DNA of 61,046 bases from Thermodesulfobacteriaceae bacterium (GTDB lineage: Bacteria; Desulfobacterota; Thermodesulfobacteria; Thermodesulfobacteriales; Thermodesulfobacteriaceae), in NCBI GenBank assembly GCA_025062245.1, contig JANXAD010000005.1:1-61046 (forward strand), given 5' to 3'. The notes beneath the pieces are model-generated. The model was not told where the DNA came from, ran no database searches, and saw only the letters and a list, made by a program, of their open reading frames with translations. A program made the translations under genes and the position numbers. Positions 21,845-44,083 of this stretch are shown here, in pieces; the first letter of the stretch is position 1; every line of letters starts with the position of its first letter.

Positions 21845-22652
21845 AAGAAAGACCATACTTTTGAGCTAAAAGTTTAATTCTTTCTTTCAATTTAAAGCCT
21901 TGATTTTTCAAAAGTTCAAATTCTTTCTTTATAACCTCTAAGAGCTCTCCATCCTTTATATTTATGAGATCGGTTTTTAAAAAGGAATTTTCCTCAGGCA
22001 TAATTATTAGAGTTATTTCTCCTAAAAACTCTTCTCTTTCAAGTAAGCTTTTAAAATCAGACCAAGTAAGTTCTTCATAAATCTTAGTTAATTCTCGAGC
22101 TAAAAAACACTTCCTATTTCCTAAAATTTCTAAAAGTTCCTTTAAAGTCTTTTTAAAACGGTGAGGAGCTTCAAAAATAACCAATGGTAGATCTATCGGA
22201 ACTTTACTTAAAAGTTTTATCTTTTCTAACTTTTTTCGAGGAAGAAATCCGAGGAAAAGAAAACCCTTTTCTAAAAAAATCCCTGAAACGCTTAGGGCAC
22301 AGGTTAAAGCTGAAACCCCAGGAACAGGAACTATTTTAATACGGTTTTGATAAACTTCTTTTACTAAAAGTGCTCCTGGATCGGAAAGAAGAGGAGTTCC
22401 TGCTTCACTTACTAAAGCTACTTCTTCTCCTTTCTTTAAAAGTTCTAAAATTTTAGGAATCCTTTTCTTTTCGATATTTTTATAAAAACTTATCAAGTTT
22501 TTTTCTCCTAACTGGTAATAGTTTATAAGTTTTTTAAAAGAACGGGTATCCTCACAAACTACATACCTAACCCTTTTTAATACCTCTAAAGCCCTTAGGG
22601 TAATATCTTTAAGATTTCCGATAGGAAGTCCAACTACAAAAAGACAACTCAT
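21816..22652 (-). CDS. rsmI: 16S rRNA 2'-O-methyltransferase RsmI
   Basis: SAM-dependent methylation of C1402 ribose in 16S rRNA. Tetrapyrrole-methylase fold with LFVVGLPIGNLKDITLRALE, VVCEDTRSFKKL, SEAGTPLLSDPGALLV and VIFEAPHRFKKTL, all diagnostic for RsmI. 278 aa is normal. Starts 4 bases inside dnaE, closing the ten-gene operon. The 3' end overlaps the convergent HdrA-MvhD gene. Confidence 0.96.
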   Translation of the reverse strand: MSCLFVVGLPIGNLKDITLRALEVLKRVRYVVCEDTRSFKKLINYYQLGEKNLISFYKNIEKKRIPKILELLKKGEEVALVSEAGTPLLSDPGALLVKEVYQNRIKIVPVPGVSALTCALSVSGIFLEKGFLFLGFLPRKKLEKIKLLSKVPIDLPLVIFEAPHRFKKTLKELLEILGNRKCFLARELTKIYEELTWSDFKSLLEREEFLGEITLIIMPEENSFLKTDLINIKDGELLEVIKKEFELLKNQGFKLKERIKLLAQKYGLSSKELYQLFS

Positions 22653-25600
22653 GAATCTGGGCTATTTTGAACTACTTTTAGCTTAACTTCTGGAAAAGTT
22701 GAAAGAAAAAGACTTACTTTTTCATAGCTTGGATTTAATCTATATCCATTAACCTCAAAAACAACTTTACAATCGGGATAAAAAAGGTGAAAGTTTACAG
22801 GTAGTCCCTCTTCTTTTTGTAAAAATTCACTTAATTGATAGAGAAACTCTTCTTTAACCTTTTCATAAGAAAAATGAATTTCTACTACACCCCTTTTAAA
22901 AAAATTCATACTTTCTAAGTATTCTAAATCCTCTATCAATAAAATAGTTTCTTCCTCATTTTTATCTATTTCTCCTTTAAACCAAAGTAAAGTCCCTTCT
23001 TTCATTTTTTCCATCCTTTGTCTATACACTTCTTGAAAGACAAGGGCTTTTATAAAGGAAGTTTCATCTTCTATTTTTAGAAGGGCTATTTTTTCACCGC
23101 TTTTAGTATTTTTGAGTTTTAATTCAGAAATCAATCCTGCAACTATAGCTTTGTAACCTTCTGGAAGAGTTTTAAGAGTTTCTAAGTTGGTTAAAGTAAA
23201 GATATTTATCCAAGGTCTGTATTTTCTCAAGGGATGATCGGTTAAATAGAATCCTAAGGCCTCCCTTTCAAAGTTTAAAGTTTCTTCCCAGCTCCAGGGA
23301 GGAATTTCTTCTAATTTTATACTGGAATCCAGGTTTAATAAAGTTGTCTGTCCAAAAAGGGTAGAATATCTGCTTTGAGAAGAAAAAGAAAGAACTGAAG
23401 ATAGATGGTACAAAAGTTTAGCTCTATTAGAGTCTAAACTATCAAAGGCTCCTGATTTAATTAAAAATTCTATAGTCTTTTTGTTTACCTTCTTAGTGTC
23501 TACCTTTTTACAAAAGTCTATAAAAGAGGTGTAGGGTCTTTTTTTAAGAATTTCTTGAACCGCTTCTTCTCCCACATTCTTAATAGCTTGGAGCCCTATT
23601 CTTATCTTATTTTCTTCTATAGAAAATCCTAATTCACTTTTATTTATCTCAGGAGGTAAAATAGAAATTCCCATTTCACGGGAAACTCTTAGATATTTGC
23701 TTACTTCTTCACTTTTCCCTGCTTCATAGGTAAGAATAGAAGCCATAAAGTAAATGGGATAGTGGGCTTTTAAGTAAGCTGTTTGATAGGCTAAAAGAGC
23801 ATAGGCTGCCGAATGACTTTTATTGAAACCATAATCCGCAAACTTTTCTATTAGTTCAAAAACCTTAAGAGCAATTTCTTGAGGAATATTTCTTTCTAAA
23901 GATCTTTTTACGAACTCCTCTCTCAAGCTTTCCATAAGTTTTTTTTCTTTTTTACCGATAGCTCTTCTTATAAGGTCTGCTTCTCCCAGAGAATAACCTG
24001 CAAAGGCTCTGGCAATCTCCATAACCTGTTCTTGATAAACAATTACTCCGTAAGTTTCTTTTAAAATAGGCTCAAGTAAGGGATGAAGATATTCAGGAAT
24101 TCTTTTCCCCTGTTTAGTTTCAATGTATTGCTCAACTAAGCCACCCTCTAACGGACCAGGTCTATATAAAGCTAAAACTGCTATAAGATCGTTAAAATCG
24201 GTAGGCTTAAGTTTTTTTAGAAGCTCTTTCATCCCAGGAGATTCTAACTGAAAGACTCCATCCGTATTTCCTTCCCTTAAGAGTTCAAAGGTTTTTTCAT
24301 CATCTAAAGGGATTTCATCTAAGTTTAGTTCTTTACCTTCATATTTTTTAATCAATTTTAGGGTATGATTGATAATGGTTAGAGTTTTTAGACCTAAAAA
24401 GTCAAATTTAATTAAGCCTACTGTTTCACAAGCTTTCATATCAAACTGAACCAAAGTTTCATTTTCATCAATTTTAAGAAGAGGAGCCACCTCTGTAATG
24501 GGTTTACCGCTTATTACCACACCAGCTGCATGTTGACTTACATGTCTCGGAAGGCCTTCAAGTTTACTGGCTAATTCAAAAAGCTCTCTTACCTTTTCAT
24601 TTTTTTGCATTAATTCTTGAATTTCAGGTCTTTTAAGTTCCTTTTCTAAAGTAACATTTGAACCAAGAGTTATCATTTTGGCTAAGGTGTCAACTTCCTT
24701 AGGCTTAAAACCAAGAACTCTTCCTACATCCCTTACTACTTGACGAGCTTTAAGTTGGCCAAAGGTTGCAATTTTAGCTATCCTATCCCTTCCATAGGTT
24801 TGAGCTACATATTCTATAACTTCATCTCTTCTTTCCATACAAAAATCTACATCTATGTCAGGTAAACTTGGTCTTTCCTTATTTAGAAATCTTTCAAAAA
24901 GTAGACCCCAACGAAGGGGATCTAAATTGGTAATTCCAAGGGCATAGGCACAAAGAGAACCTGCAGCTGAACCTCTTCCAGGTCCTACAGGAATACCACG
25001 AGATTTAGCCCATTCAATAAAGTCGGAAACTATTAAAAAGTAGCCACTGTAACCCTTTTCTATAATGACTTCTAATTCCTCTTCCAATCTTTTCTCGTAG
25101 TTTTCCTTTAAAGTCCAAAGTTCTCCTCTTTTTTCTAACTCCTTAAGTCTTTTCTCCAATCCAGAGTAAGCCTTTTTTTTCAGATAACTCTCTTCTGTTT
25201 CTCCCGGAGGAACCTTAGCCTTTGGGAAAAGAGGCTCTTCTAACTTAAGCTCTAAGTTTACCTTTTCAAAAATTTCAAGGGTATGGCTCAACACTTCCAA
25301 AGGATAATTTTTAAACCTTTCCCTTAGGTCTTCTTCAGGGGCCAAGTAAAGCTTATTCGTATTAAATCTAAATCTATTAGGGTCAGTAATTTTATGTCCA
25401 GTTTGAATACAAAGAAGAACTTCGTGAGCTAAGGCATCTTCAGGATTAAGATAGTGACAATCTGCAGTGGCTACAACCTTGATTTTCAACTTTTCAGAAA
25501 TTTCCATCATAATTTGATTTACCCTTTTTTGCTCAGGAATTTCGTTTTCTTGAATTTCCAAATAAAAGTCTTCTCCTAAAACTTCCTTATATTCCTTAGC

Positions 25601-26077
25601 TACAGTGTAAGCTTTATCTATTTGTCCCTCCAAAATAAGTCTTGAGATTTCTCCCTCTAAACAACCGGAAAGAACTATAAGTCCCTCTTTATAGGTTTCT
25701 AAAAGTTTTTTATCTATTCGAGGTCTATAGTAAAAACCCTCTAAATAAGCTAAAGTAGCAAGTTTTAATAGATTTTTATAACCAGTTTCGTTTTTAGCTA
25801 TAACTACTAAATGGGTTCCCGCTTCACCTCTCTTAGAACTCTTCTTTTCTTTATAAGAAGTCTCAGCTACATAAAACTCACATCCCAAAATAGGTTTTAA
25901 GTTAGCTTCTTTAAGTTTAAGATAAAAAGGAATAATTCCATAAAGAGTTCCATGGTCAGTGATAGCACAACCTGGCATTTTAAATTCTAAAAGTTTTTTA
26001 ACTAATTCTTCAATCTTAATAGCTCCGTCAAGTAAGCTCCATTCTGTATGTAGGTGTAAATGTATAAAATTACCCAT
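22649..26077 (-). CDS. dnaE: DNA polymerase III alpha subunit
   Basis: Replicative C-family polymerase, 1142 aa (E. coli 1160). N-terminal PHP domain begins FIHLHLHTEWSLLDG. The palm has GPGRGSAAGSL and the catalytic Asp pair in PDIDVDFC (near 409-411). Fingers FADYGFNKSHSAAYALLAYQ and a C-terminal OB fold near 970-1060 follow. This is the DnaE1 type with no exonuclease insert. Two bases after proB and overlapping rsmI by 4. Confidence 0.97.
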   Translation of the reverse strand: MGNFIHLHLHTEWSLLDGAIKIEELVKKLLEFKMPGCAITDHGTLYGIIPFYLKLKEANLKPILGCEFYVAETSYKEKKSSKRGEAGTHLVVIAKNETGYKNLLKLATLAYLEGFYYRPRIDKKLLETYKEGLIVLSGCLEGEISRLILEGQIDKAYTVAKEYKEVLGEDFYLEIQENEIPEQKRVNQIMMEISEKLKIKVVATADCHYLNPEDALAHEVLLCIQTGHKITDPNRFRFNTNKLYLAPEEDLRERFKNYPLEVLSHTLEIFEKVNLELKLEEPLFPKAKVPPGETEESYLKKKAYSGLEKRLKELEKRGELWTLKENYEKRLEEELEVIIEKGYSGYFLIVSDFIEWAKSRGIPVGPGRGSAAGSLCAYALGITNLDPLRWGLLFERFLNKERPSLPDIDVDFCMERRDEVIEYVAQTYGRDRIAKIATFGQLKARQVVRDVGRVLGFKPKEVDTLAKMITLGSNVTLEKELKRPEIQELMQKNEKVRELFELASKLEGLPRHVSQHAAGVVISGKPITEVAPLLKIDENETLVQFDMKACETVGLIKFDFLGLKTLTIINHTLKLIKKYEGKELNLDEIPLDDEKTFELLREGNTDGVFQLESPGMKELLKKLKPTDFNDLIAVLALYRPGPLEGGLVEQYIETKQGKRIPEYLHPLLEPILKETYGVIVYQEQVMEIARAFAGYSLGEADLIRRAIGKKEKKLMESLREEFVKRSLERNIPQEIALKVFELIEKFADYGFNKSHSAAYALLAYQTAYLKAHYPIYFMASILTYEAGKSEEVSKYLRVSREMGISILPPEINKSELGFSIEENKIRIGLQAIKNVGEEAVQEILKKRPYTSFIDFCKKVDTKKVNKKTIEFLIKSGAFDSLDSNRAKLLYHLSSVLSFSSQSRYSTLFGQTTLLNLDSSIKLEEIPPWSWEETLNFEREALGFYLTDHPLRKYRPWINIFTLTNLETLKTLPEGYKAIVAGLISELKLKNTKSGEKIALLKIEDETSFIKALVFQEVYRQRMEKMKEGTLLWFKGEIDKNEEETILLIEDLEYLESMNFFKRGVVEIHFSYEKVKEEFLYQLSEFLQKEEGLPVNFHLFYPDCKVVFEVNGYRLNPSYEKVSLFLSTFPEVKLKVVQNSPDS

Positions 26078-41639: not shown

Positions 41640-41951
41640 TAAAAGCTATGCTTTTCCAACTAATCTATAAAGCAAACTCCGTATAAGCCCAGCTACTATG
41701 GATAGATTACTTAAAGAAGAGAGAGGCAGGCTGAGAAGTAGAAGTAAGACCAAACCAGGGAGCTTATTAAAGAGGGAGATTACGGTGTGAGAAGCTTTAA
41801 TGAATGGGATGAGAATAGAGTAAGTTTTTTGGAAATTGATTTAGTTGTGCATACTACAGATATGTTTATAGGAGGGATAATTATCTTTAGAAAATTAAAT
41901 GAGGCCATGAAAGAGATTTCCTTTAGAATTTTAAATGAGGCATTACGATGA
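41640..41951 (+). pseudogene. Decayed integrase-core transposase
   Basis: One frame reads PATMDRLLKEERGRLRSRSK then TKPGSLLKREITV and stops at 41788-41790. A frame shifted by one continues VRSFNEWDENRVSFLEIDLV and VHTTDMFIGGI, ending at 41951. This matches the region of DDE integrase-type transposases around the first catalytic Asp (W-x-E-x-R-x-G-F-x-E-I-D-L-V). Only a short middle part survives and the rest of the DDE core is gone. It differs from the IS481-like remnant at the left edge. Confidence 0.75.
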
Positions 41952-42135: not shown

Positions 42136-42223
42136 TTAAAGGACCTTTTCCTTTTATTAGCTTAAAGTGCTGTATCGGTTACCTATTTTGGATAAGATGA
42201 GATTATTTTTAGATTTGAAAAAA

Positions 42224-42245
42224 TAATGTTCCACGTGGAACATTA
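42224..42245. other. parS: parS-like centromere site (ParB-binding palindrome)
   Basis: Bases 42227-42242 read TGTTCCACGTGGAACA, a perfect 16-bp palindrome identical in form to the bacterial parS consensus (TGTT-N-CACGTG-N-AACA). Symmetry extends to 22 bp (42224-42245). In an AT-rich genome such a GC-containing exact match is very unlikely by chance. ParB spreads from such sites to segregate the chromosome, and they usually lie near the replication origin. It is 14 bases beyond the dciA stop codon. parA/parB are not in this window. Confidence 0.9.
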
Positions 42246-42259
42246 AAATAAAAAAATAT

Positions 42260-42715
42260 TTAGAATTTTTTCAATTTTACATAACTTTTAAACATTTTTA
42301 CAAAAACTTTTTTAATTTCAGGATCCCTAATTTCCTCACAAAATCTTAAAAAAATTTTTAAGTTTTGAGAATTAGAAGGAATAGTTTTAAGGGTCTTTTT
42401 ATGACTTAAAGTTTCTAAGGACGGATTAATTTTAAAGCGAAGATTTTTAATAGAATTTTTGAGTTTTTCAGGTAAAACTTCCTTTATCTTTTCCAAAAGG
42501 ACTAAGGTTTTTCCTGAAAGATTTTGTAACACATAGTGATTAGGAACTTCAATCCAAAGGGTTTCCTCCTGAATTAAGGTGGGAAAGGTTTTAGGACTAA
42601 ACTCTTTTTCTACAATTTTTTCCCAATTTTTTTGAAGAAACTCTAATAAAAGGAGATTTTTTTTAATTTGAGTAGAAAGATTCAGACTTAAAAAAATATC
42701 CTTAACAGGCTTCAT
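42260..42715 (-). CDS. dciA: DUF721/DciA-type helicase loader
   Basis: A 151-aa protein matching the DUF721 pattern: LEFLQKNWEKIVEKEFSPKT, LIQEETLWIEVPNHYVLQNL, then LLEKIKEV and LRFKINP. DciA is the ancestral bacterial factor that loads the DnaB replicative helicase in species without DnaC/DnaI. The C-terminal 45 residues (FLRFCEEIRDPEIKKVFVKM) are an added helical tail. Last gene of the radical SAM - phosphomannomutase - dciA unit, three bases after the mutase, and directly beside the parS site, a replication/segregation context. Confidence 0.75.
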   Translation of the reverse strand: MKPVKDIFLSLNLSTQIKKNLLLLEFLQKNWEKIVEKEFSPKTFPTLIQEETLWIEVPNHYVLQNLSGKTLVLLEKIKEVLPEKLKNSIKNLRFKINPSLETLSHKKTLKTIPSNSQNLKIFLRFCEEIRDPEIKKVFVKMFKSYVKLKKF

Positions 42716-42718
42716 AAT

Positions 42719-44083
42719 TTAAAATTCCTTTAACACCTTTTCTAAGGTTGAGTATACTCTATCTTGAAGTTCTTTTAGGAAGGCTTCATTTTCTGCTTCA
42801 AAACGAAGCACTAACACTGGCTGGGTATTAGAAGCTCTAACCAAAGCCCATCCCTCTTTAAATTCAATTCTTGCTCCATCAACCTCAATTACTTGAAGCC
42901 CCTCTTTTTTAAAAGTTTGAACTAATTTATTGACTACTTGAAATTTTATTTCATCAGGGCATTCCTTTCTTATTTCAGGAGTAGAATACATTTTGGGAAG
43001 TTCTTCTAAGTAAGCAGAGAGGGGTTTATCACTTTCTGAGAGAATCTCAGAGAGCCTCAAAGAAGCATAAACTCCGTCGTCAAAACCAAACCATCTATCT
43101 CCAAAAAAGATATGTCCACTCATCTCCCCAGCTAAAATAGCCTTTTCTTCCTTCATTTTGTTTTTTATAAGGGAGTGCCCTGTTTTCCACATAATAGGAA
43201 TACCGCCAAACTTAGCAATGCTTTCATAAAGAATACGAGAACATTTCACTTCTCCTATAATTTTAGCTTGAGGGTGTTTTTTAAGAAGTTCTTTGGCAAA
43301 GATTACTAAAAGCTCATCTCCCCAGATAATATTTCCCTTTTCGTCAATCACTCCCAGTCTATCCCCATCTCCATCGTATCCAAATCCTACCTCATATCCC
43401 TTACTTAAAACCCTTTCTTTTAAAAAGCGTAAATTTTCAGGAACTACAGGATCAGGAAAGTGATGGGGAAAATTCCCATCTATTTCACAAAACAAACATT
43501 CCACTTCACATCCCAATCTTTTAAAAATCTCTGGCGCCGTTAAAGCACAAACTCCGTTTCCAGGATCTAAAGCTACTTTTAAACTTCTTTTCAATTTTAT
43601 ATTCTGAGAAACATATTCAATATAGCTACTTAAGATTTCCTTTTGATCTAAACATCCCTCTCCCTTTTCATAATCTTCCTTTTCTATAATCTTTCTTATT
43701 TCTTGAATTTGTTCTCCAAAAAGGGTATCCTTCCCAATACAAATTTTTAAACCATTAAACTCAGGAGGATTATGAGAACCTGTTACTTGAATACCTCCAT
43801 CTAATCCTTCTAAGGTAAAGAGGGAAAAATACATAACCGGAGTGGGACACATTCCTATTTCTACTACATCTATTCCGGTTTCTAAAATTCCTTCTATCAG
43901 GTTTTGTTGCAGAAGAGGGCTTGAGAGTCTTCCATCTCTTCCACAGGCTACCTTTTTTCCTCCCTTTCTTCTAACCAGAGTCCCATAGGCTCTACCAATT
44001 TCCTTTACTACCTCTGGTGTAAAATCTACCCCAACCTTTCCTCTTATATCGTATTCTCTAAAAATATAGGGACTTACCTTCAT
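42719..44083 (-). CDS. manB: Phosphomannomutase/phosphoglucomutase
   Basis: Interconverts mannose-6-P and mannose-1-P (and the glucose pair), feeding GDP-mannose synthesis. Alpha-D-phosphohexomutase architecture: FREYDIRGKVG start, catalytic Ser S103 in TGSHNPPEFNGLK, the metal-binding loop YDGDGDRLGVID, GEMSGHIFF for sugar binding and RASNTQPVLVLRFEA as the phosphate loop. 454 aa, AlgC-like. The matching guanylyltransferase manC is about 5 kb away on the other strand. Confidence 0.94.
   Translation of the reverse strand: MKVSPYIFREYDIRGKVGVDFTPEVVKEIGRAYGTLVRRKGGKKVACGRDGRLSSPLLQQNLIEGILETGIDVVEIGMCPTPVMYFSLFTLEGLDGGIQVTGSHNPPEFNGLKICIGKDTLFGEQIQEIRKIIEKEDYEKGEGCLDQKEILSSYIEYVSQNIKLKRSLKVALDPGNGVCALTAPEIFKRLGCEVECLFCEIDGNFPHHFPDPVVPENLRFLKERVLSKGYEVGFGYDGDGDRLGVIDEKGNIIWGDELLVIFAKELLKKHPQAKIIGEVKCSRILYESIAKFGGIPIMWKTGHSLIKNKMKEEKAILAGEMSGHIFFGDRWFGFDDGVYASLRLSEILSESDKPLSAYLEELPKMYSTPEIRKECPDEIKFQVVNKLVQTFKKEGLQVIEVDGARIEFKEGWALVRASNTQPVLVLRFEAENEAFLKELQDRVYSTLEKVLKEF

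Follow-up and report, generated by a model that had tools for sequence, protein, structure and literature searches.

The stretch of DNA that we analysed (the window) comprises the 61,046 nucleotides of contig JANXAD010000005.1, which belongs to the draft genome of a Thermodesulfobacteriaceae bacterium (GCA_025062245.1; 1,627,487 bp in 89 contigs, 93% complete; here G000). Two adjoining genes on its minus strand, pgm, encoding a phosphoglucomutase/phosphomannomutase (42719..44083), and dciA, encoding a replicative helicase loader/operator (42260..42715), lead up to the site studied here. The dciA assignment rests on a weak match to PF05258 (DciA/DUF721) that is over the cut-off (26 bits, gathering score 24, E 1.1e-5). 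Past the 3' end of dciA, where the window reads AAAAAATAATGTTCCACGTGGAACATTAAAAT, lies the 16-mer TGTTCCACGTGGAACA (42227-42242, no strand assigned), an exact perfect palindrome whose symmetry extends to 22 bp, TAATGTTCCACGTGGAACATTA (42224-42245), followed directly on the dciA strand by a T6 tract (42218..42223, minus strand; A6 on the plus strand). The 16-mer stands 17 bp from the dciA 3' end, and in the nearest relative that we found the corresponding distance is about 4 bp. Scanning the window against Rfam and for tRNAs gave no matches.

The 16-mer exactly matches the 16-bp palindrome that defines parS, TGTTYCACGTGRAACA, so that the earlier description of the site as a perfect palindrome of parS form with 22 bp of symmetry is exact. 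No other palindrome of at least 22 bp was found in the window, and dinucleotide-preserving shuffles give 0.07. A search of the whole draft for the 16-mer returned it once; no other sequence came within one or two mismatches of it, and at three mismatches there were 6 further places, as compared with 3 when the pattern was reversed as a control. The base composition of the genome would predict 1.5e-4 exact occurrences, which bears out the earlier note's view that a chance match is improbable. The rarity of a chromosomal parS is thus observed here, and the random scatter that would have spoken against one was not seen. Note that the clustering of several sites, which had also been predicted, did not materialize, since G000 carries one site only; one or two per genome is normal in this group.

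Since the dciA protein as query gave no relatives among the genome contigs searched, we used pgm to place the genome. By the named relatives of its pgm, G000 appears to fall in or next to Thermodesulfobacterium, a genus of heat-loving bacteria, and its nearest relative is a sister species (G005, contig JAUQQL010000018; 87% pgm identity). With up to one mismatch allowed, the parS motif occurs at one or two sites in 14/14 genomes of the genus and in 52/60 relatives, and the reversed control gives almost none. Where a relative has a pair of sites these are mostly close together, and in many congeners the two lie 0.4-8 kb apart. In G010 (L131 6693-14846) the members of the pair are separated by 8.1 kb and several additional genes, compared with 0.97 kb in G013, as if an island had been inserted within the pair.

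Next, we searched G000 for the proteins that would read such a site. A single clear parB is present (C21:7913-8440; 184 bits to TIGR00180, cut-off 58), so the lack of parB that had been named as a refuting outcome is not the case, and a ParA-type ATPase was also found (C10:26487-27278; 185 bits to AAA_31), which shares 55% identity with the ParA of genus g5, where parA adjoins parB in a clustered operon. The ParB aligns to Caulobacter ParB (6T1F) and to Spo0J (1VZ0). In a manual reading of the alignment to 6T1F, whose chain numbering is shifted by 10, the four specificity positions carry R, L, K and G, with R and G at the equivalents of R173 and G201. These two residues are fixed in parS-binding ParBs and are Q and R in Noc (PMC7383237). 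G000 thus encodes a chromosomal-type ParB with parS recognition residues of the R173/G201 type, the predicted reader of the palindrome.

The closest characterized counterparts are parS2 and parS3 of Pseudomonas aeruginosa (TGTTCCAC/GTGGAACA), which share the same 16 bp, are perfect palindromes and have a canonical ParB partner (PMC4368675). They are proven ParB sites, bound preferentially among the ten P. aeruginosa sites (PMC4368675). P. aeruginosa differs in having four sites close to oriC, whereas G000 has one known site, with parA and parB elsewhere (PMC4368675). The Noc-binding site (NBS, TATTTCCCGGGAAATA) is also a 16-bp palindrome bound by a ParB paralogue, but its core differs; it is excluded here because the switch residues of the G000 ParB are R and G, not Q and R, and because this protein scores below the Noc cut-off. 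A LexA-type box, whose half-sites run GAAC...GTTC, is excluded by that opposite order.

Judged from sequence, therefore, the palindrome is very probably a chromosomal parS, that is, a bacterial centromere of known kind, in a Thermodesulfobacterium species. It is almost certainly a segregation site of this chromosome, and probably its sole one; the draft, at 93% completeness, could lack a second one. By analogy with the studied ParABS systems, ParB dimers would load with CTP on the site, extend over the DNA on either side of it, recruit SMC and be pulled apart by ParA, so that the origin domain would segregate first. Points against this identity are that G000 has one site only, with neither an oriC nor a DnaA-box cluster beside it, that parA and parB are unlinked to parS both here and in the closed congeners, that the sole site of the sister species carries one mismatch inside the CACGTG core, and that in the congener G004 the parS lies 130-280 kb from the skew minimum.

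Another possibility could be that the palindrome is a chance occurrence or a relic, unused, and that the chromosome is segregated through another, unrecognised site or without ParB-parS. The mismatched core in the sister species, the unlinked parA and parB and the presence of just one site would suit this idea. We consider it highly improbable, since the palindrome is retained in perfect form although the site that relatives carry beside dapA is absent, ParB and ParA are intact and without stops, G000 holds no other candidate site, and a single parS suffices in other bacteria (PMC7333895, PMC4368675).

The position of the parS at the end of a gene raises the question of a role in transcription. 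The RNA of the dciA strand would form a 9-bp stem with an ACGU loop, followed by the T6 tract. Its folding energy is -10.4 kcal/mol (z -3.7), and 0 of 200 shuffles folded as well. The palindrome thus has the features expected of an intrinsic terminator, a stable stem-loop and a T tract behind the end of a gene, but its stem contains only three G-C pairs and the shuffled region yields 1.2 such patterns by chance; no second terminator-like site was found in 41-43 kb. Elsewhere in the genus, the dapA-side parS of G013 makes up the top of a stem of 17 bp, after which comes a T9 tract, and the flanks in G010 and G004 have other sequences yet still pair. At the gene-end parS sites (n=11) the flanks pair at 59/88 positions, against a mean of 37.9 with shuffled partners (P 0.0006), whereas at the second sites, which mostly lack T tracts or long stems, they pair at 26/56 against 21.3 (P 0.075). 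Note that this test used one site per near-identical group, so that relatedness is only partly controlled. In the sister species (L126 7098-7113), the core change gives a U-G pair on the dciA strand; the RNA stem survives and the DNA symmetry is broken.

Could the palindrome, then, be only an intrinsic terminator of pgm-dciA, with a coincidental likeness to parS? The 22-bp palindrome with its T6 tract, alone of its kind in 41-43 kb, and the pairing of gene-end flanks across the genus above the shuffled level are what such an explanation would predict. A stem, however, need not keep 16 exact bases, and between species the flanks vary while the 16-mer stays constant. Moreover, the motif occurs in one or two copies per genome, the second sites are mostly devoid of T tracts and long stems, and the 16-mer is identical to a site at which ParB binding is proven, while G000 encodes a parS-type ParB. 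A terminator and nothing else is thus very unlikely. Since the two functions are compatible, we regard termination as a second role of the parS and not as a rival identity. The gene-end parS is nested within a more extended hairpin, with T6 behind it in G000, and probably doubles as a terminator, which in G000 would end the pgm-dciA transcript.

In the other Thermodesulfobacterium genomes the parS has the same 16-mer, occurs in one or two copies per genome and has a similar placement, one site usually lying 0-22 bp past a gene 3' end and linked to dnaE; the neighbouring gene differs. In most congeners, as well as in genus g6, the site follows the stop codon of dapA by 0-22 bp, whereas in G000 and the sister species it is found at dciA. 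The pgm-dciA pair itself is kept in most of the genus. In G000 and G005 dapA is still present and is followed by what is apparently the same crp-like gene as in g6, and the interval between these two genes contains no parS-like sequence with fewer than 5 mismatches. The idea that parS simply follows dapA is ruled out, since dapA and its next gene occur without parS in these two genomes. In the DapA tree, G000 and G005 are sisters (99/97) and stand beside G002, which also lacks a parS at dapA. The simplest history is that the dapA-side site was lost in this clade and that a new site was gained or a second one retained.

A genus-wide marker of the parS domain is the gene for the dnaE-type DNA polymerase III alpha (22649..26077 in the window, minus strand), whose distance from the site is 16 kb in G000 and 4.6-30 kb in eight more congeners (G001, G004, G005, G006, G008, G009, G010 and G013); in G002, dnaE and parS are on different contigs. 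As a second linkage marker radC failed, being near parS only in G000, G005 and G004. Since the wider dnaE domain is kept across congeners, the genes surrounding the centromere seem to have shifted more than its own position along the chromosome. Between a GGDEF-EAL gene and the parS, the window also carries fragments of a DDE-type transposase in two frames (41640-41950), and tblastn of both finds annotated transposases; the sister species is without this insert, and its tlyA directly abuts parS.

The earlier note had placed the window near the replication origin. Because the origin of the G000 draft is unmappable and the skew of the window mostly follows gene orientation, this proposal rests on relatives. 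The GC-skew plot around 42 kb does give a cumulative minimum, at about 46-48 kb, but this largely tracks the switch of gene orientation at 45.5 kb. We therefore sampled the GC skew of closed relatives in 20-kb stretches, raw and corrected for gene strand, and compared it with the origin position by which a parS is defined (PMC7022226). In G013 the skew origin is at 1510-1590 kb, with a finer local minimum at about 1516-1520 kb, and parS is at 1505 kb; in G010 the origin lies between 1650 and 1830 kb and parS at 1746 kb. In both genomes, parS coincides with the skew minimum or is no more than about 90 kb away. G018 fits roughly (origin 1200-1280 kb, parS 1132 kb; 70-150 kb off), and in G004 the site is displaced by the distance given above (origin 180-250 kb, up to 330 kb when corrected; parS 457 kb). 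Orthologues of window genes, dnaE and its neighbours, adjoin parS in congeners. With G013 and G010 in agreement and G004 at odds, the parS of G000 is likely to be near the origin, as judged from these relatives.

A search for oriC by DnaA boxes gave no cluster in the window, including beside parS; the window has a single TTATNCACA. Nor did the stretches read in G004, G010, G013 and G018, about their parS and skew minimum, show any grouping of at least four boxes per 600 bp. In these same four genomes dnaA is about 180 kb or more, and mostly more than 500 kb, from the skew minimum; parS would mark the likely origin region in a group with so distant a dnaA. Near 9 kb in the window, the skew polarity flips by a YhgA-like gene (PF04754; 8754-10799) that has a tail of QEGLQKGI repeats; this may be an inversion border.

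Finally, we compared the arrangement of the ParABS parts. According to a review, what is conserved in such systems is that the ori domain contains the par operons and parS (PMC7022226), and in G016, G017, G030 and G032, which belong to other genera of the order, parA and parB are adjacent and near parS, the three lying within about 1-4 kb. This canonical locus is not what is found in G000, where parS, parB and parA are on three contigs, nor in the closed Thermodesulfobacterium and g6 genomes, where they are 137-726 kb apart. With the parS positions as given above, parA and parB are at 996 and 792 kb in G013, at 210 and 595 kb in G004, at 314 and 642 kb in G010, and at 943 and 1509 kb in G018. 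The site itself is ordinary; its setting, with separate parA and parB and changed neighbours, is unusual.

That parS and parAB lie together close to oriC is regarded as nearly a rule for the segregation of bacterial chromosomes, and the Thermodesulfobacterium setting breaks this linkage. We tentatively propose, as a possibility still open to considerable doubt, that the genus may have a fully dispersed ParABS, with parA, parB and the centromere in separate and shifting positions and the centromere inside gene-end terminators, from where in one lineage it would have passed from dapA to dciA and so come to adjoin the gene of the replicative helicase loader. For such a dispersal we claim no priority, our literature search for exceptions having been narrow. 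With cultured species, three separated parts and a centromere whose neighbour changes between close relatives, the genus lends itself to a comparative study of how centromeres are retained. Several congeners (L044, L045, L046 and L060) carry a lone parA 6-8 kb 3' of pgm-dciA, and the parA of G000 is on another contig.
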